Below are positions 25,400 through 55,339 of a stretch of 64,000 nucleotides of DNA, piece after piece (position 1 is the stretch's first letter; each line of letters begins with the position of its first letter). The translations under genes were made by a program, and so were the position numbers. The DNA comes from Candidatus Peribacteraceae bacterium (GTDB lineage: Bacteria > Patescibacteriota > Gracilibacteria > Peribacterales > Peribacteraceae), in the NCBI GenBank assembly GCA_018061945.1, contig JAGOTD010000001.1:277050-341049 (forward strand), written 5' to 3'. Below the pieces are notes generated by a model, which saw only the letters and a list, made by a program, of their open reading frames with translations, searched no databases and had not been told where the DNA came from.

Positions 25400-25489
25400 G
25401 ATACGAATTACGAATCGCGAATTACGAATTACGGATATTCCAGCGCTCGTAATTCGTGATTCGTACTTCGTACTTCGATTTCGTAATTC
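25400..25489. repeat. Family A heptad hairpin upstream of dnaJ
   Basis: Arm 1 (25400-25434: acgaattacgaatcgcgaa and on) and arm 2 (25446-25489: cgtaattcgtgattcgtac and on) flank a short loop. The second arm contains the -35-like TTCGTA of the dnaJ promoter. Confidence 0.8.
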
Positions 25490-27931: not shown

Positions 27932-27998
27932 CGAATCACGAATCACGAATTACGAATTACGACCTTTCGTACTTCGTAATTCGTAATTCGTAATTCGT
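27932..27998. repeat. Family A heptad hairpin between HU and jag
   Basis: A nearly perfect inverted repeat. Arm 1 (27932-27962) is made of acgaatcacgaattacgaa-type units and arm 2 (27967-27998) of ttcgtacttcgtaattcg-type units, with a 4-nt loop. Confidence 0.85.
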
Positions 27999-28415: not shown

Positions 28416-28561
28416 GCCAAAAAGCACTTGAAATGCCCTGAAAAACGTGATTCAGTCGTCGAAATGGCTTATATAAGCCGTTTTAAATTGTTTGCAAGAA
28501 ATACTCAATTGTTTTGTAACGTTCTAAAATATGTGTAAAACGCCTTCTGGGGGCGGGGGAA

Positions 28562-28786: not shown

Positions 28787-31153
28787 ATGCCAACACACTT
28801 AGTGATCGTCGAAAGCCCGACGAAAGCCAAAACTATTAAACGTTTCCTCGGAAAAGACTACATCGTAGAATCCAGCATGGGTCATATCCGTGATCTGCCA
28901 AAAAAGGAAATTGGTATCGATATCGAACACGATTACGAGCCGACCTACATCATTCCAAAAGAGAAAGAGACGCAGGTGAAAAACTTGAAAGCAGCGCTTA
29001 AGGAAGCAGACACTCTCTGGATCGCAACCGACGAAGACCGCGAAGGAGAGGCGATTGGCTGGCATCTTTTGGAAGCACTCAAAGTGAAGGACAAGAAGAA
29101 TGTGAACCGCATCGTGTTCCACGAAATTACGGAAGAGGCGATCAAGGCAGCAATTGCCAATCCACGCAAAATCGATCAAAACTTGGTGAGTGCACAGCAG
29201 GCACGTCGCGTGCTCGACCGCTTGGTCGGCTACACGCTGTCGCCATTTCTCTGGAAAAAAGTGTACCGCGGACTCTCTGCCGGACGCGTGCAATCCGTTG
29301 CCGTGCGCGTGATTGTCGACCGCGAGCGCGAGATAAAAGCGTTTAAGCCGGAAGAATACTGGACGCTGGATGCGCACATGAAAAACAGCAAGAGCGAGCC
29401 ATTTATTGCGCAGCTGCGCGAGCGCGATATGAAGAAGTACGTGCCCGTTTCGCAGCAGGAATCGGATGCGGTTCTCACAGATCTTGAAAACGCTTCGTAC
29501 GCTGTGCGATCGGTCGATACCAAGGAACTCAAGCGCACACCGCCGCCGCCATTTACGACATCGACACTGCAACAGGAAGCCGGTCGCAAGCTGGGTTTTT
29601 CGGTAAAGCAGACAATGGTTGTGGCGCAGCAACTTTACGAAGGAGTGAGTCTTGGTAAGGGGCAAGGCGTATCAGGATTGATTACGTACATGCGTACCGA
29701 CTCGGTGAACTTAAGCCAGAAAGCTCTTGCCGATGCCAAAGAAATGGTGGGCAAATTGTACGGCCGTGAATATGTGCTGGCTGAGCCACGCATCTACAAG
29801 ACGAAGTCGAAAAATGCGCAGGAAGCACACGAAGCCATTCGTCCGACAGAAGTGAGCCGCGTGCCAAGCTCGCTGCACGATGTGCTCGATGAGCAGCAGA
29901 TGAAGCTCTATACACTCATCTGGAATCGCACGATGGCAACACAGATGGCCGGCGCCGAAATTAAACGCATTGGTGCCGATATTGATACGCAGGGCAAAAC
30001 GCACTTGTATACCTTCCGTGCCACTGGTCAGACAGTGACGTTCGATGGATTCTTGCGCGTGTATTTCGAAAGCAAAGATGAAGATCAGATGGAGAAAGAT
30101 CAAGCAGCTGGTGAAGCCGACGGCGAAAAATTCTTGCCAGAACTATTTGAAAAAGAAGCGATCAGCTGTGAAGAGCTCAAGCCCGAACAACACTTTACCA
30201 AGCCACCGCCACGCTACACAGAAGCGAGCCTGGTCAAGAAATTGGAAGAAGAAGGCATTGGTCGTCCAAGCACCTACGCACCGACTATTTCCACTATTCA
30301 GCAGCGCGGTTACATCCGCAAAGAAGGCAAGCAGCTGGCGCCCGAAGACATCGCGTTTACCGTGATTGATCTTTTGGCTGAGCACTTCGCCGACATTGTG
30401 GATCTGAAATTTACGGCCAACATGGAGCAAGAGCTCGACGATATTGCCGATGGCAAAAAAGAATGGGTGCCCTTCATGCGCTCGTTCTACGAGCCATTCT
30501 TGAAGCTGGTGAATGAGAAGACGAAAGACATCAAGAAAGAAGATGTGATGAAAGATCGCGAACTCGGTACGGACCCAGAAACAGGATTACCGGTTGTCGT
30601 GCGCACAGGACGTTTCGGCGCCTACGTGCAGCTGGGACTGTGGGACAAAGAGAAGGGCAAGGCGGCTAAGCCAAAAGCTGCGTCGCTGCTGAAAGGCATG
30701 CACGCCGATACCGTGACATTCGAAGAAGGATTGTCGCTGCTCGCGTTTCCTAAAAAACTCGGCAAGCTCGGCGAGGATGATATTATTTTAAGCCTCGGCC
30801 GCTTCGGGCCATATCTGAAGGCCGGAGAAATGACTCAGTCGCTGCCAAAAGATGCGAATCCGCTCTTGTTTGACGCTGCCGCTGCAACAGCACTGCTGAC
30901 CGATATGTCGGCACGCAAAGCTGCCGCGCCGACAGAAAGCTTGGGTCTTGATCCGCAGTCTCAGGGTAAAATTTTCTTAAAAGAAGGCCGCTTTGGACCG
31001 TATTTGACCGATGGCAAAACGAACGTGTCGCTCGGCAAAAAGATCGAGCCGAAAGATGTGACACTGGAAATTGCGATTGCCATGCTCAAGAAAAAGCGCG
31101 AAGCACCGCCAAGTAAGTGGAAGGGCCGTGGAGGTTGGGCGAAGAAGGCATAA
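28787..31153 (+). CDS. topA: DNA topoisomerase I
   Basis: Type IA topoisomerase that relaxes negative supercoils. The Toprim domain starts at once (LVIVESPTKAKTIKRFL, with DEDREGEAIGWH near residue 80). The active-site Tyr is residue 301 in GLITYMRTDS. The C-terminus (about 600-788) carries Topo_C_Rpt-type repeats with GRFGAYVQLG, GRFGPYLKAG and GRFGPYLTDG instead of Cys4 zinc fingers. It ends in a Lys/Trp-rich tail. The 788-aa length is normal. ATG at 28787. A family G repeat follows directly after the stop. Confidence 0.97.
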   Translation: MPTHLVIVESPTKAKTIKRFLGKDYIVESSMGHIRDLPKKEIGIDIEHDYEPTYIIPKEKETQVKNLKAALKEADTLWIATDEDREGEAIGWHLLEALKVKDKKNVNRIVFHEITEEAIKAAIANPRKIDQNLVSAQQARRVLDRLVGYTLSPFLWKKVYRGLSAGRVQSVAVRVIVDREREIKAFKPEEYWTLDAHMKNSKSEPFIAQLRERDMKKYVPVSQQESDAVLTDLENASYAVRSVDTKELKRTPPPPFTTSTLQQEAGRKLGFSVKQTMVVAQQLYEGVSLGKGQGVSGLITYMRTDSVNLSQKALADAKEMVGKLYGREYVLAEPRIYKTKSKNAQEAHEAIRPTEVSRVPSSLHDVLDEQQMKLYTLIWNRTMATQMAGAEIKRIGADIDTQGKTHLYTFRATGQTVTFDGFLRVYFESKDEDQMEKDQAAGEADGEKFLPELFEKEAISCEELKPEQHFTKPPPRYTEASLVKKLEEEGIGRPSTYAPTISTIQQRGYIRKEGKQLAPEDIAFTVIDLLAEHFADIVDLKFTANMEQELDDIADGKKEWVPFMRSFYEPFLKLVNEKTKDIKKEDVMKDRELGTDPETGLPVVVRTGRFGAYVQLGLWDKEKGKAAKPKAASLLKGMHADTVTFEEGLSLLAFPKKLGKLGEDDIILSLGRFGPYLKAGEMTQSLPKDANPLLFDAAAATALLTDMSARKAAAPTESLGLDPQSQGKIFLKEGRFGPYLTDGKTNVSLGKKIEPKDVTLEIAIAMLKKKREAPPSKWKGRGGWAKKA

Positions 31154-32176: not shown

Positions 32177-33076
32177 ATGCAGATACAAATATCCATTCAG
32201 CGCCCAATCCTTACGCTAGCAGCCATTGTTGCAATCGGCGTGTTTGCGCTAAGTACTGTGCAGACAAAAAAATCTACGCCTCTTCATGCGCAAGCAATGG
32301 GCGGCGACAATACTGCGGCGACTGTGGCAAAGGCCAGCCAGGATATACAGCGTGAACAGACTAAGCAGGCAGTGCTGGGGCAAAAGAAAGAGATTTATGA
32401 GTATCAACTGAAACTCTTAGAGGAGCAGGCGGTAGCAAGTAAAAATGCGCAAGACATGGCAAATGTGAGCGAAGCACGCAAGACACTTCTGGCTATCATC
32501 AAAGACAAAACCGCATCCGAAAAACTCTTAACCGACGCGCTCAACGCTCTGTGGGACGCACAGGGAACTGAAATCGATACGAGTATGAGTGGGCAGATCG
32601 ACTTTGAGTTGGTACAAGCACCTGTTCCCCTCACGCAGGGAATTTCGGCTTATTTCCATGATAACGACTACAAAGCCCATTTCGGTTTCGATCATTTAGC
32701 TGATGACATTCGCGCAGCTCAAGGCACACCGATTCAAGCTCCTGCCGATGGAGTCGTGGTGCAGGCAGTCGATAACGGGCTTGGCTATAGCTACCTCGTC
32801 CTTTCGCATGCTGATGGCAAATACCAGACTGTTTACGGTCACGTAAGCAAGATGCTGGTTCGTGCCGGCGATACGGTGCTGGCTGGTGACACCGTAGCAC
32901 TGAGTGGTGGCGCGATTGGCGCACCGGGCTCTGGTCCGTATACAACCGGTCCACATTTGCACTTTGCGATGAAACGCCGCGGCGCAGACGGAAAGTATCG
33001 TCTCCTTGATCCGCTTCCATACTTGCTCAACGCAACCGATCGTATTCTGAATGATCAAATGGAGAGCGGGGGATAG
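32177..33076 (+). CDS. M23-family peptidase with coiled coil, membrane-anchored
   Basis: A probable peptidoglycan endopeptidase of the LytM/M23 type. A signal anchor (about residues 9-27) precedes a coiled coil (about 45-125, REQTKQAVLGQKKEIYEYQLKL), the layout of EnvC-like activators or hydrolases. The C-terminal M23 domain shows HFGFDHLAD (His and Asp Zn ligands), YGHVSKM and PHLHF (HxH), so it looks catalytically competent. Start: ATG at 32177 has GGGGAG five bases upstream. A TATAAT box at 32161-32166 lies 10 nt before it, implying a very short leader. An upstream in-frame ATG at 32165 overlaps that box and is unlikely. Confidence 0.85.
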   Translation: MQIQISIQRPILTLAAIVAIGVFALSTVQTKKSTPLHAQAMGGDNTAATVAKASQDIQREQTKQAVLGQKKEIYEYQLKLLEEQAVASKNAQDMANVSEARKTLLAIIKDKTASEKLLTDALNALWDAQGTEIDTSMSGQIDFELVQAPVPLTQGISAYFHDNDYKAHFGFDHLADDIRAAQGTPIQAPADGVVVQAVDNGLGYSYLVLSHADGKYQTVYGHVSKMLVRAGDTVLAGDTVALSGGAIGAPGSGPYTTGPHLHFAMKRRGADGKYRLLDPLPYLLNATDRILNDQMESGG

Positions 33077-33241: not shown

Positions 33242-33805
33242 CTACCGGAACATTCGCCCAAACAATCCGCGCTTTTTTGATGCCGCCTTCTCTACCGGTT
33301 CGTTTTTCTTTTCAGACTTGCGCGTAGACGCACGAACGACTTCCTTTGGCACTTCTCTTCCATCCGACAAAGCTGCACGCTGCTGCAACGATCCTATGAG
33401 GATATTTCCTTCGCGAAGGCGCTCGCCAAGTCCACCGATGAGCTCCATTTGCTTGCTGATCATTTCGGACTGTTGTGCAATCTGCATATTTTTGATGGTG
33501 AGTTCCTGCTGCAACATGGCGAGTAAGTCGATCCGGTCTTGAGATTTCTCGATGACAGCTGGTTCGGGCTGCGAGCGAGAGACGGACTCGGCTGGAGTAA
33601 TTTTGCCGACAAACTCGTCGCTGATACGCCACGGAAAATTTTCGCCTTTCAGCCGTAGTTGGCGCGCTTCGTCGGCACTCGGCTGAATGTGAATTCGGTC
33701 GACATGATTATCGTCTTCAATGACAGGATAAATGATGCGACGAATGGAGCTGGCAGATTTTCCAGTGAGCTTGGCAGCCTCTTTAACAGTGAGAAATGTC
33801 GACAT
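33242..33805 (-). CDS. HTH DNA-binding protein with coiled coil (187 aa)
   Basis: The N-terminal 40 residues (MSTFLTVKEAAKLTGKSAS) look like an excisionase/MerR-type winged helix-turn-helix. A central coiled coil covers about 85-140 (LLAMLQQELTIKNMQIAQQSE). The C-terminus is Lys/Arg-rich and ends RGLFGRMFR. Such a layout occurs in DNA-binding regulators and segregation-type proteins, and the function cannot be decided. Start at 33805 rather than the ATG eight codons upstream, because the HTH begins here. The 370-bp upstream region holds repeated GGTACC/GGAACC-type motifs, candidate operators for this protein. Confidence 0.7.
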   Translation of the reverse strand: MSTFLTVKEAAKLTGKSASSIRRIIYPVIEDDNHVDRIHIQPSADEARQLRLKGENFPWRISDEFVGKITPAESVSRSQPEPAVIEKSQDRIDLLAMLQQELTIKNMQIAQQSEMISKQMELIGGLGERLREGNILIGSLQQRAALSDGREVPKEVVRASTRKSEKKNEPVEKAASKKRGLFGRMFR

Positions 33806-33819
33806 AGTTTGAAAGGGAA

Positions 33820-34195
33820 GGAGTACCAAAAGCCTACCACGTTGGAAAGGTTCCGCAAGGGGTATACCGATACCTTTTCAGAATGCATTCCGGAAGGTTC
33901 CAGCAAGAGAAAAATAGGCGTTTCATCCGCTTCCAAATTGGTTTCATACATTTATTCTGGTAACCACCTGGTACGATACCGATAGGGTACCAATTTCATT
34001 TTTTCTCTCTTTCATCTTGGCACCATTCCACAGGGGTCTACCAAGAAAAATATTGGGAGACTTTCAAGAGGTTATCGGCAGCTTTTATTTGGCTTTCTTC
34101 CTGCGTTCCAAGACGCATCAGAAAACATATCGAAGACGTACCGAAAGGGTACCGTGAGAAAAAATTGAGACATGTGGAACCTTTCCATAATTAGA
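33820..34195. promoter_or_regulatory. Cluster of repeated palindromic motifs upstream of the HTH gene
   Basis: Two motif types recur. Type 1 is tataccgatacc (33861-33872), gataccgatagggtacc (about 33975-33991) and gtaccgaaagggtacc (about 34139-34154). Type 2 is ggaaaggttcc (33844-33854), ggaaggttcc (33892-33901) and ggaacctttcc (about 34177-34187). The spacer has no gene. Repeated half-sites next to a DNA-binding protein gene suggest autoregulation or a nucleoprotein assembly site. This is inference. Confidence 0.5.
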
Positions 34196-34205
34196 TAATG
34201 CGACG

Positions 34206-34275
34206 CACGAATTACGAATCTCGAATTACGACTTTTCGTAATTCGTACTTCTTGATTCGTACTTCGTTTTCGTAT
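34206..34275. repeat. Family A heptad hairpin after dgt
   Basis: Arm 1 (34206-34232, cacgaattacgaatctcgaa) is followed almost directly by arm 2 (34234-34275, ttcgtaattcgtacttcttg and on). It lies a few bases from the dgt stop. Confidence 0.8.
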
Positions 34276-34283
34276 GATGAATT

Positions 34284-35384
34284 CTAAAGTTCTGCTCGCG
34301 CATCGAGTGCAAACACATCCGTCATGCCGGCGATGTAATCTTTCACCGCTTCCTCTAGGGCTCCGTTTGTTTTTTTCTGCAAGGCAACTACTTTTGGTGG
34401 AGGCGTCTGCATGTAAGCGGCAAACAGTGCAGCGATTGTTTCTCTGCCGTGTTGCGCTTGGCTTGTCACTTGTTCACTCAAATAAAAGCGTTTCCACAAC
34501 AGCGCACGCAATTCTTTGAGGCCTTCCTGCATGGCAGCCGAGAAATCTATAAGAGGGGATGTGCAGTGATAGACATCGGCGAGCGATGTGATTTTTTGCT
34601 CTTCCAGCAGGGCTGCAGACGTTTTGTAGAGATCTGTGACAAGCATTGTCACCAGGCTTCCACGAATGTCGGTTCCACGCCGCTGCGCCCGAGTAAGTGC
34701 TGCTGCAGGCAGCATGAGCCCGGAAAGATCGGCCAATGTAAAAACACCAGCGCGCAGGCCATCGTCCGTATCGTGTGCGGTATACGCAATTTCATCGGCG
34801 AGGTTGACGACTTGTGCTTCAAGCGTTGGCGCGCGGGCAATAGAGGAGCCATCGGCGTAGTCGTGAGGTGTCCTGTGCTTCATCATTCCTTCGTGAATTT
34901 CGCGCATAAGGTTAAGGCCGGGAAATTGTGTCGATCGATCTTCTAATAATGTGACGATTCGTAGCGACTGTTCATTGTGCTCAAAGCTCTTACCATAGGG
35001 CTCCATGCAACTTCGCATCGCTTCTTCGCCAGCATGTCCAAATGGCGTGTGGCCAAGGTCGTGAGCGAGCGCTACCGACTCCGCCAAGTCTTCGTTGAGG
35101 CTAAGTGTACGCGCTATGTCGCGACTTATTTGTGCCACTTCGATGGTGTGCGTCATCCGCGTGCGGTAGTGATCGCCCGTTCCCGCAGCAAATACTTGTG
35201 TCTTATGCTGCAAGCGGCGAAACGCCTGCGTATGAATAATGCGATCACGATCACGCTGAAAAGGGAATCGTGTTTCATCCTGCTCTTCGGGATGCACCCG
35301 CCCAAGCCCTTCGCCGTGCGGCACTGCATAGGGTGCGAGAAGGGAATTTGTCTGTTGGAAGCGGTTGGAAAGGGGTGTAATCAT
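34284..35384 (-). CDS. dgt: Deoxyguanosinetriphosphate triphosphohydrolase-like protein
   Basis: HD-domain dNTP triphosphohydrolase releasing tripolyphosphate from dGTP and related dNTPs. Visible: FQRDRDRIIHTQAFRRLQHK near residue 40, RTRMTHTIEVAQISR (His of the HD site), LAHDLGHTPFGHAGE (HD motif) and the downstream FEHNEQS. The 366 aa resemble the shorter Dgt-like subfamily rather than E. coli Dgt (505 aa). The start at 35384 fits homology and a leaderless promoter (TTATCA-17-TATACC, 7 nt before the ATG). It may help control nucleotide pools. Confidence 0.92.
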   Translation of the reverse strand: MITPLSNRFQQTNSLLAPYAVPHGEGLGRVHPEEQDETRFPFQRDRDRIIHTQAFRRLQHKTQVFAAGTGDHYRTRMTHTIEVAQISRDIARTLSLNEDLAESVALAHDLGHTPFGHAGEEAMRSCMEPYGKSFEHNEQSLRIVTLLEDRSTQFPGLNLMREIHEGMMKHRTPHDYADGSSIARAPTLEAQVVNLADEIAYTAHDTDDGLRAGVFTLADLSGLMLPAAALTRAQRRGTDIRGSLVTMLVTDLYKTSAALLEEQKITSLADVYHCTSPLIDFSAAMQEGLKELRALLWKRFYLSEQVTSQAQHGRETIAALFAAYMQTPPPKVVALQKKTNGALEEAVKDYIAGMTDVFALDARAEL

Positions 35385-35662: not shown

Positions 35663-36141
35663 CACACATCATCAAGACGACCGTCGCAGGCTACAGCTAT
35701 ATTCCCTGGAATCCAGGGGGGTGACCTCAGCTCCACATCCGCAGACGGAAGCGATTTGGTCTCCCATATAGCTAGTCAGGAAAAAAGCATATGGCCTGCT
35801 AACGCATCGTCGAGACGAGTTGCAAGGTTAACAGGATGATAAAAGACTGTCGAGCGATCGGAGATGAAAGAAGCACACAAGTGTGGCTTGGAAATTTTGA
35901 GAAAGAGTCCCCACTACGCGCTGCGGCGCTTCGAGGGGCAAGCAAGAAAAGAATGATGAAAATCCGAAGATCAAAATGCTAAATACGAGACAAATTCTAA
36001 AATAGAAGGAGGAAATATAAAAAAACCATCGCGACGAGGCTTTGGTAGAAATATTAATTGCCTCACCGGGACGAGGCGTCCCGGCTGCGGACTCAATGAA
36101 TCATCTTTCATTCGTACTTCGTAATTCGTGCGTCGTAATTC
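35663..36141. other. Gene-free spacer with repeats
   Basis: No gene found. It contains an inverted repeat (ccctggaatccaggg, about 35702-35716) and a relative of the rpoB-leader hairpin sequence (about 35910-35945). It also holds part of the dispersed cgaagatcaaa sequence, the palindrome CCGGGACGAGGCGTCCCGG (36066-36084) and a lone family A arm (36111-36142) that abuts the next stop codon. Confidence 0.55.
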
Positions 36142-44707: not shown

Positions 44708-44783
44708 TCGAATTACGAATCGCGAAGTACGAAGTACGATTTTTTTCACTTCGTAATTCGTAATTCGTACTTCATAATTCGTG
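44708..44783. repeat. Family A heptad hairpin between zwf and ybaK
   Basis: Arm 1 (44708-44739, cgaattacgaatcgcgaag and on) and arm 2 (44747-44783, cttcgtaattcgtaattcg and on). Arm 2 reaches the ATG of the ybaK-like gene and includes its -35 and -10. Confidence 0.85.
44750..44778 (+). promoter_or_regulatory. Leaderless ybaK promoter within heptad arm
   Basis: TTCGTA (44750-44755), 17-nt spacer, CATAAT (44773-44778), 6 nt to the ATG at 44785. The whole promoter lies in the repeat arm; CATAAT is a one-base variant of the repeat unit. Confidence 0.55.
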
Positions 44784-54244: not shown

Positions 54245-55339
54245 TTAGCGCAACAGCCCCTCATACATCCCCACCATTTTTTCCACCGAAAATAATTTCT
54301 CAGCTGCCAGTTTTCCTGCCTGCGCGATACGCTTTCTTCTTTCGTCATCTGTGACAAGTGACCGGATAGCCGCTGCCAGCGATGCGCTATCGCCCGCTTT
54401 GGCAATCACGCAATTTTCCCCATTGTCCAAATAGCCAGCAATGCCACACATGTCGGTGACAATCGTTGCGACCCCCATGCTCATGGCTTCGGCCGCTACC
54501 AGGCCAAAGGGATCGTGATCGGACGATGGCAACACAAAAATATCGAGAGATGTGTAGAACGCACCGAGATCATCGATGTGATCGACCGTGCGCACGCGAT
54601 CAGTCAATTTTGCTTTCCCGATACGATCAGCAAGTGAGGATTGCTCGCGCCCTTTGCCGACGATGGTCACATCGATACTCTCTACAAGCGCAGCGGCATC
54701 AATCAGATCCGCGATTCCTTTCTCGGGCGAAAGCCGCGCAATACTGCCGACGCGAAGCGCCGAGCCGGCGTGAATAACGTGATCGGAGATTTCAAAGCGC
54801 TTAAGGTCGATACCGTTTGGAATCGCAACGACACGAGATGCATCAAAACCAAGATCAATGTACATTTTGCGACTGAGTTCCGAGACGCAAATGATAGTTG
54901 CATGTTTACTCGCTTTCTTGAGCGCCGAAAGCCACGGACTTTTCGTGAGCCAGCGGCCAATGCGATCGTGCTCCACCCAGAACACACGCACACCTTGTTT
55001 GGCTGCCCACTGCGTGAGCAATATCTTTTCCGATAGACTGAGCATGAACATGGCATCTGGCAGGGATTTCTCCTTAAAGAAATGAACCAGCTGCTCTTTC
55101 ATTTTTTTCTGTCGCCATGCAAAAGATATCGCAGCCGTTTTTGTTACCGGTGGGGGCCCAATGCGTAATTCGTAATTCGTGATTCTTGATTCGCTCGTCT
55201 GTTTCAGTAAAACTTTGCAGTCGCCTAGAAATTCAACGTCGTGACCATGCTCGACAAATTCTTTCATGAGTGACACTGTCTGTATCTCCATACCACCATA
55301 GGCACTGACGAGCGGAAAACGTGTGAAAAGGATATTCAT
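54245..55339 (-). CDS. Glycosyltransferase, GT4 family, with repeat-derived insertion
   Basis: GT-B glycosyltransferase. The N-terminus has SAYGGMEIQTVSL (about 12-24). The C-terminal domain has RVGSIARLSPEKGIADLI, DIFVLPSSDHDPFGLVAAEAMSMGVATIVTD (E-x7-E type) and an 'ARL' pattern typical of the family. Residues of about 49-59 (SESRITNYELRI) are encoded by a family A heptad arm (55163-55195), an unusual insertion in a region where relatives have other residues. Length 364 aa. A family F arm abuts the start codon at 55339; no promoter is evident. The acceptor is unknown. Confidence 0.85.
   Translation of the reverse strand: MNILFTRFPLVSAYGGMEIQTVSLMKEFVEHGHDVEFLGDCKVLLKQTSESRITNYELRIGPPPVTKTAAISFAWRQKKMKEQLVHFFKEKSLPDAMFMLSLSEKILLTQWAAKQGVRVFWVEHDRIGRWLTKSPWLSALKKASKHATIICVSELSRKMYIDLGFDASRVVAIPNGIDLKRFEISDHVIHAGSALRVGSIARLSPEKGIADLIDAAALVESIDVTIVGKGREQSSLADRIGKAKLTDRVRTVDHIDDLGAFYTSLDIFVLPSSDHDPFGLVAAEAMSMGVATIVTDMCGIAGYLDNGENCVIAKAGDSASLAAAIRSLVTDDERRKRIAQAGKLAAEKLFSVEKMVGMYEGLLR
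55163..55195. repeat. Family A arm inside a coding sequence
   Basis: gcgtaattcgtaattcgtg and following units lie in frame in the GT4 gene. No partner arm is close. The heptad period gives a near-period-7 amino-acid pattern over three units. Confidence 0.75.

Follow-up and report, generated by a model that had tools for sequence, protein, structure and literature searches.

The Par protein of plasmid pSK1, a single DNA-binding protein that works with a cis site, combines a MerR-type winged helix-turn-helix (wHTH), a coiled coil and a C-terminus nearly identical to a MinD-like helix (PMC11500499, PMC5016525). The domain DUF536 is common to pSK1 Par and RocS of Streptococcus pneumoniae. RocS joins a MerR-type wHTH and a coiled coil to a MinD-like amphipathic helix at its end, which binds membrane only when multivalent or oligomerised (PMC11500499). 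RacA of Bacillus subtilis uses DivIVA as its anchor (PMC11500499), TubY of type III plasmids is a partition protein whose C-terminal region binds both membranes and DNA (PMC7762940), and BldC loads cooperatively along repeats (PMC5859096). The locus considered here sets a chromosomal gene for a predicted wHTH and coiled-coil protein beside a dense array of short palindromes, in a bacterial family where most genomes show no match to ParB.

A repeat array upstream of a predicted winged-helix gene

The window is the whole stretch of DNA that was analysed, 64,000 nucleotides (positions 277,050 to 341,049) of contig JAGOTD010000001.1 from an ultra-small, uncultured Candidatus Peribacteraceae bacterium (assembly GCA_018061945.1). 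An earlier note on this DNA had pointed to an HTH plus coiled-coil gene next to a motif cluster, and such a gene is present on the minus strand at 33242-33805, encoding 187 residues. Its start is taken as the ATG at 33805 and not the TTG at 33829, since homology with the nearest relatives begins at 33805. An AlphaFold2 model built from a 30-row alignment predicts a winged HTH at residues 1-70 (pLDDT block means 86-93) and one long helix, a predicted coiled coil, at residues 87-146; the linker and the tail, KKRGLFGRMFR, are modelled with low confidence. The predicted wHTH aligns with Xis, BldC and RacA at VIA Z scores of 5.4, 5.1 and 4.7 (51-57 aligned residues, rmsd 2.5-4.9), the RacA match (5i44) being weak; unrelated coiled-coil chains also reach a VIA Z of 5.0 against the helix of the protein, and Foldseek matches of the predicted wHTH are not significant (E ≥ 0.8). 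The window protein passes the cut-off of no Pfam model; HTH_17 matches it at E = 0.014 and 17 of the 30 rows at E ≤ 0.1 (best 0.00035). A PDB sequence search gave four coiled-coil matches only (E 0.09-0.26), and the plasmid and phage collections contained no match for the protein.

The tail appears to resemble the membrane-targeting sequence of MinD and RocS. Among 30 aligned proteins, all 29 that have a tail carry a net positive charge over their last 11 residues, 3-5 of which are hydrophobic; the tailless L034 was set aside, and in L056 the final 8 residues were removed before the count. The hydrophobic moment is not above that of the tail's own shuffles. The window tail has a charge of +5 and a moment of 0.45 on our own scale, which may differ from the published one; the published charge and moment are +2 and 0.245 for RocS and +2 and 0.424 for E. 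coli MinD (PMC13042908), again with the reservation that the scales may differ.

The array itself spans 33806-34195 and consists of about 14 eleven-bp units of the form GRAA[CG]S[CG]TTYC. It lies upstream of the 187-residue gene, in the space between it and a gene for a dGTPase-like HD phosphohydrolase (HD and HD_assoc domains; 34284-35384, minus strand). On the other side, the convergent neighbour is an M23 peptidase gene (32177-33076, plus strand), and topA (28787-31153, plus strand) lies 2 kb beyond the 187-residue gene with the M23 gene between; topA also adjoins the gene in at least five relatives of the TGATCA type described below (L178, L181, L182, L183, L185). The earlier note had counted six motif copies of two types. 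All six exist, each of its six strings occurring once on the plus strand within the 64 kb (GGAAAGGTTCC at 33844, CGGAAGGTTCC at 33891, GGAACCTTTCC at 34176, TACCGATACC at 33865, TACCGATAGGGTACC at 33977 and TACCGAAAGGGTACC at 34139), and they are the best members of the larger set, so that six is an undercount; the two types look like one 11-bp unit.

Read on the minus strand and taken in order away from the gene, the units include GGAAAGGTTCC (33844-33854), which lies in the spacer of the predicted promoter and overlaps its -35 element by two bases, followed by GATACCTTTTC (33869-33879) and the two units GAATGCATTCC and CGGAAGGTTCC (33881-33901, with CGGAAGGTTCC at 33891-33901). Two weaker units 11 bp apart, CATCCGCTTCC and AAATTGGTTTC, occupy 33924-33945; two abutting units in 11-bp register, GGTACGATACC and GATAGGGTACC, occupy 33970-33991, the sole tandem-unit match with 0 mismatches across the 1.37-Mb genome. 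Beyond them are GGCACCATTCC (34019-34029), three abutting units in 11-bp register, GAAAACATATC, GAAGACGTACC and GAAAGGGTACC (34121-34153), and GGAACCTTTCC (34176-34186), the inverse of GGAAAGGTTCC. Spacings of exactly 11 bp thus recur at 33924/33935, at 33970/33981 and at 34121/34132/34143. In a same-genus relative the units at 33869-33879 and 34176-34186 are each identical at 11 of 11 positions.

The motif model was trained without supervision, its only input being the 400-bp upstream regions of 15 planctomycete relatives, and it yielded GRAA[CG]S[CG]TTYC. Applied to 33806-34195, it finds 9 sites at a score of at least 6, where 500 dinucleotide shuffles gave a mean of 1.36 and a maximum of 6, and 13 sites at a score of at least 5, where the shuffles gave a mean of 2.76 and a maximum of 11. 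The array is the densest 400-bp stretch of the 356.8-kb contig at all three thresholds used (18 sites against 13 in the next stretch, 13 against 9, and 9 against 6). Self-similarity at a lag of 11 bp has Z = 5.9 in the array, compared with Z = -1.0 in 97 pooled control stretches downstream of the genes, which are mostly coding and display the 3-bp period of coding DNA with no signal at 11 bp. Conservation follows the units: in the same-genus relative, 86% of 153 motif columns are identical against 73% of the other 237 (Fisher p = 0.003). The earlier note had held that motifs missing from a close relative that keeps the HTH gene would speak against it, and in the sole same-genus relative found both motifs and gene are kept. 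It had also called for a search of the motif elsewhere, and here the array again stands out, leading its contig and holding three of the four tandem-unit matches of the genome. The total of four does not exceed that of a reversed control (six), and it is the clustering alone, not the genome-wide count, that is informative.

The window also contains interspersed elements built from a 7-bp tandem word, CGTAATT or AATTACG; CGTAATTCGT occurs 15 times in the window and its complement 7 times. They lie at 34201-34267, 14112/14522, 25403-25467, 27945-27998, 36111-36130, 44751-44772 and 55164-55181, several as inverted pairs and one adjoining the array, and a similar element occupies the same place in the same-genus relative (L002/L031). 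They may form a small family of mobile or hairpin repeats.

At the edge of the array nearest the gene, a promoter is predicted on the minus strand with a -10 element TAGGCT (33831-33836) and a -35 element TTGCGG (33853-33858), both given as reverse complement; the -10 is conserved in the window's genus and in most planctomycete loci read. In 14 of 17 loci from the window genus and Planctomycetes, a promoter-like pair TTGCCA-N16-TAGGCT precedes the start codon by about 53 bp; none of the 17 stretches taken 290-400 bp upstream has it. The pattern was drawn up once some of these sequences had been read, and some loci are near-copies.

Words and spacing among relatives

Where upstream sequence was read, each clade shows its own word. 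The window's genus is Peribacterial with a planctomycete-type protein and a planctomycete-type word (the GGAAC-GTTCC type), and the planctomycete-trained model works there. In the family outside that genus, 10 of 15 loci read carry TGATCA, and in another Peribacterial clade four of five loci carry GGAGGC words, with 3-6 words near the gene and almost none in G065. Thalassoglobus has a GTTCA-type word. Within the more divergent homologues of other families in the class, L024 has ACTAGT four times, with top lags of 35 and 23, and L027 is similar by eye; words like ACTAGT or GATTAATC precede both genes.

A spacing of 11-12 bp recurs across these different words. Lag-11 self-similarity reaches Z = 14.1 over 15 planctomycete loci, some of them near-copies, with further peaks at 23, 35, 46 and 47, and Z = 3.3 in Thalassoglobus. 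Ten TGATCA-type loci hold 79 TGATCA in total within 500 bp upstream of each gene, and 48 pairs fall at 11, 12, 22, 23, 34 or 35 bp, against a mean of 14.7 and a maximum of 29 in 2000 jittered sets; taken singly, nine of the ten have a lag-11 Z below 2, and the 11-12 bp spacing is visible in their site positions. GGAGGC copies near the start are 12 or 24 bp apart, and also 22 and 44, in four of five loci. The earlier note had asked whether motif spacing is conserved in relatives, and the answer is divided. A pitch of 11-12 bp does recur with different words, and this face-of-helix spacing would point to cooperative loading of the protein; on the other side, seven of nine later planctomycete loci (L210-L216) have no lag-11 period (Z of 4.0 in L209, 2.3 in L207 and at most 1.5 in the other seven), nor do the six divergent homologues L024-L029, and L049 and L050 have negative lag-11 self-similarity. 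Arrays may thus not be universal, or may be too diverged to show the period. L043 and L044, whose contigs start at the gene, were excluded from these upstream statistics.

Dense TGATCA clusters sit mainly at the gene. Nine TGATCA-type genomes have some match to a triple-TGATCA pattern, and 32 of their 40 forward matches fall within the upstream array; the pattern is missing from four of the 13 TGATCA-type genomes. Among nine non-carriers of the gene, eight have none and one has three matches. G000 (the window genome) and G065 have a single match apiece, in neither case in the region upstream of the gene. Three genomes (G102:C3:32256, G159:C39:2956, G222:C51:4215) show a second, smaller TGATCA cluster, located 1.7-3.4 kb past the 3′ end of the gene.

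In both its protein clade and its motif word the window genus sides with the Planctomycetes and not with its own family, which fits a protein-site pair. That array and protein belong together appears well supported by these sequence comparisons.

Distribution and descent of the gene

In the window's class, 23 of 288 genomes match the protein profile, 17 strongly and 6 weakly; the 17 strong carriers, the window genome included, are all in the window's family and the weak ones are in other families. Most relatives in the class therefore manage without the gene. Scanning a genome collection yielded 31 loci, of which 18 have planctomycete titles and the other 13 those of Peregrinibacteria or Peribacteria, and 16 of 297 sampled genomes of the planctomycete class match at E ≤ 1e-6, the seed genome included. 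Several planctomycete genomes have more than one family gene, with three matches in G305 and two each in G308, G311, G438 (the second partial) and G564; multiple copies would fit plasmids or repeated acquisition. The divergent genes of other families in the class (L024-L029) have the same architecture, several with W-rich basic tails such as KRKWYQVWK, and in all six the apparent start of a glutamate-dehydrogenase-type gene can be read from the frames within 1.6 kb downstream.

The window protein shares 47-61% identity with the proteins of a planctomycete group (GG) and 24-40% with those of other genera in its own family. A tree of 36 rows nests the window genus in the planctomycete GG clade (19 rows, support 95/97), and none of 200 bootstrap trees sets the planctomycete GG rows alone apart by a branch. 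Alignment A4 and the tree omit L040 and L059, and the tree also omits L206-L208, L211-L215, the divergent L024-L029 and genomes G159, G210 and G241. Gene transfer between phyla would be the simplest reading, its direction being inferred on a tree whose root is the midpoint. The five groups on the tree were named partly by protein similarity (L043 and L044 are without upstream sequence and L020 has almost no GGAGGC), so the minimum of four word changes on the tree is no independent test.

Neighbouring genes, chromosomal position and ParB

Behind the gene, 15 planctomycete loci have a conserved Rep-like gene of some 500 residues, which a contig end truncates in some of them. The plasmid initiator family RPA (PF10134) matches seven of nine scanned Rep-like proteins at E ≤ 0.1 (best 7e-5), two of the scores being 18.2 and 14.9 bits, below the 27-bit cut-off, and the structural model of the Rep-like protein is of low confidence (pLDDT 63.5, pTM 0.30). 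By our own reading, Thalassoglobus and both G564 loci have another type of gene in this position, and L034 is without both tail and Rep-like gene. The plasmid collection gave no match for one planctomycete HTH protein or its Rep-like neighbour, and the Thalassoglobus protein found weak plasmid matches only (E ≥ 0.02), one of which was inspected and dropped. Ten planctomycete neighbour proteins include no plasmid hallmark except one Toprim protein. A gene like tRNAHis guanylyltransferase (Thg1) lies beside one planctomycete array (L039, 1369-2832, minus strand), with a relative at L037. Among the Peribacteria, no relative of the Rep-like gene was found in the flanks of 13 loci, which reach 3 kb at most and are shortened in places where a contig ends, and none adjoins the window array; the array thus goes with the HTH gene and not with rep.

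The distance of the locus from dnaA was read in two genomes of one sub-clade, both with GGAGGC-clade genes. It lies 594 kb from dnaA on the single-contig, 1239-kb circle of G065 (594 of 620 kb) and 516 kb from dnaA on the 1071-kb main contig of G155 (516 of 535 kb), that is, at 96% of the distance to the dnaA antipode in both. By sampled GC skew, the minimum falls 118 kb from the locus in G065 and 87 kb from it in G155, and the maximum falls 107 kb and 81 kb, respectively, from dnaA; dnaA is closer to the maximum than to the minimum in both and is perhaps far from the origin. Skew would weakly favour the origin side for this locus. Since the intervals for the minimum are wide (22-302 kb for G065 and 780-926 kb for G155) and no skew minimum coincides with the locus on the contig of the window, a position near the origin is not claimed. 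A dif-like pattern was dropped, with one 2-mismatch match in G065 against two control matches in the same genome. In Ca. Peribacter riflensis, short repeats are described near the skew-defined origin (PMC4736985).

The window genome, which is 94.6% complete, has no match to ParB_N or parB_part. TIGR00180 finds a match at E ≤ 0.001 in 15 of the 74 genomes of its family, and over the cut-off in three, leaving 59 without a ParB match at E ≤ 0.001. The gene is not simply a substitute for ParB, as two of the three clear-ParB genomes carry it (G226, and G001, a bin with 6% contamination); carriers G102, G202 and G241 have weaker ParB matches. DUF536 (PF04394) has no match in the window genome at E ≤ 10 and none over cut-off in any of 11 genomes, sub-threshold matches inside the gene being confined to G102 (0.061) and G020 (0.126). 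As the domain was not found, the window protein is not classed as a member of the DUF536 family.

Discussion

Several explanations for the array can be weighed. A product of chance or of sequence composition is very hard to credit: single units do hold little information and the genome-wide tandem-unit count does not pass its reversed control (4 against 6), but none of 500 shuffles reached the observed numbers, the model came from other species, and the units are conserved. Pure autoregulation is a serious but less probable alternative: the protein would repress its own gene through the array, acting as an extended operator, and the tail would serve another purpose. In the Planctomycetes its target would perhaps be the gene-rep operon, that is, copy control. 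The promoter-like pair in 14 of 17 loci, with an array unit inside the spacer in the window, would be expected equally of a plain autorepressor. Yet about 14 units over 390 bp exceed the needs of a repressor, the distal units are conserved as well (34176-34186 at 11 of 11 positions), the basic-hydrophobic tail is retained in 29 of 30 aligned proteins (L034 lacks it), and the Peribacterial copies have no adjacent rep gene to control. The conserved promoter at the array edge makes autoregulation likely as well, so that this part of the earlier note's proposal (partition or replication iterons, or an autoregulated repressor, with chromosomal anchoring as an alternative) gains ground.

Its replication part does not fare as well, since the window gene has no Rep-like gene beside it. 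Iterons of a replication origin, or the remnant of one, bound by a Rep protein, would suit the planctomycete loci, where the Rep-like gene follows and is matched by RPA, but the arrays persist in Peribacteria, where no relative of the Rep-like gene was found beside the gene, and the nearest DnaA-box-like 9-mer in the window, at 28532, is more than 5 kb away; we consider this reading improbable. Equally doubtful is a role like that of RacA, whose binding sites are dispersed over the chromosome, with the protein also binding scattered sites and anchoring a chromosome region or organising a replication pole opposite dnaA. The place of the locus near the dnaA antipode in G065 and G155 would accord with it, but these two genomes belong to one sub-clade, and the concentration of dense TGATCA clusters at the gene (32 of 40 in nine genomes) is unlike the scatter of RacA sites.

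The reading that we favour over a pure autoregulator, with a probability of roughly one half, is that the locus is a type IV-like, single-protein partition or tethering module of plasmid type that is now chromosomal. It is preferred because the make-up of the locus corresponds to that described for pSK1 Par and RocS (PMC11500499): a predicted DNA-binding protein with a coiled coil, an adjacent site of many units that probably includes an operator, and a tail of membrane type; partition or anchoring, which the earlier note had raised, would thus follow from domain architecture and precedent. The label of plasmid type rests on the Rep-like gene and on the patchy, sometimes multi-copy occurrence of the family. 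In such a module the winged HTH would recognise the 11-bp palindromic units, and units at 11-12 bp spacing would share one face of the helix, so that dimers formed through the long coiled coil could load cooperatively over about 390 bp. The unit between -35 and -10 would place the gene under autorepression. The tail KKRGLFGRMFR, weak by itself, would bind membrane once multivalent on the array. The chromosomal locus would thereby be tethered to the envelope and sister copies would be kept apart.

A broader and more tentative proposal is that the module serves as a one-protein centromere for the chromosome of ultra-small bacteria of the Candidate Phyla Radiation, captured as a plasmid module from a planctomycete-type element, its word rewritten at least three times (GGAAC-GTTCC, TGATCA, GGAGGC, and in other families perhaps words resembling TGACTAGTCA) and its spacing of one helix turn kept. 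That two of the three clear-ParB genomes of the family are carriers weighs against it; the module may supplement ParABS, or stand in where ParB is undetected. For a family with no ParB match at E ≤ 0.001 in 59 of its 74 genomes, such a module would give a first candidate for a segregation site. Natural arrays that differ in sequence and share a helical spacing, in both plasmid-like and chromosomal settings, would also make the effect of tethering alone testable. The parts of the module are of known kinds. As far as the open-licence literature shows, the gene family, the arrays with changing words and recurring pitch, and the chromosomal copies in Peribacteria are new, and in that literature no paper was found that combines “Peregrinibacteria” and “chromosome segregation”.

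Set against the known systems, the module has one protein of DNA-binding type and an adjacent array, which we infer to be the cis site of a single-protein partition type; its neighbours (M23, dGTPase-like, topA) include no NTPase partner. pSK1 Par likewise pairs one protein with a cis site and, as described, has parts like those predicted for the window protein; it is plasmid-borne, whereas the window gene is chromosomal, is without DUF536 and has an 11-bp palindromic unit that is lineage-specific. RocS is chromosomal, as the window gene is, and combines wHTH, coiled coil and a C-terminal amphipathic helix; the excerpt drawn on names no repeat array beside rocS (PMC11500499), and DUF536 is undetected in the window genome. 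Because the RocS tail needs multivalency, the array would be what supplies it here. RacA has a MerR-type wHTH and a coiled coil (PMC11500499), comparable with the parts predicted for the window protein, and differs in its DivIVA anchor and dispersed sites; the window has one array beside the gene. TubY acts with the GTPase TubZ and a centromere-binding protein, unlike the single-protein module proposed for the window. BldC has a MerR-like wHTH, with which the one predicted for the window protein aligns at VIA Z 5.1; it has no coiled coil and loads on 9-bp direct repeats arranged head to tail, in contrast to the palindromic units of the window with their spacing of 11-12 bp.
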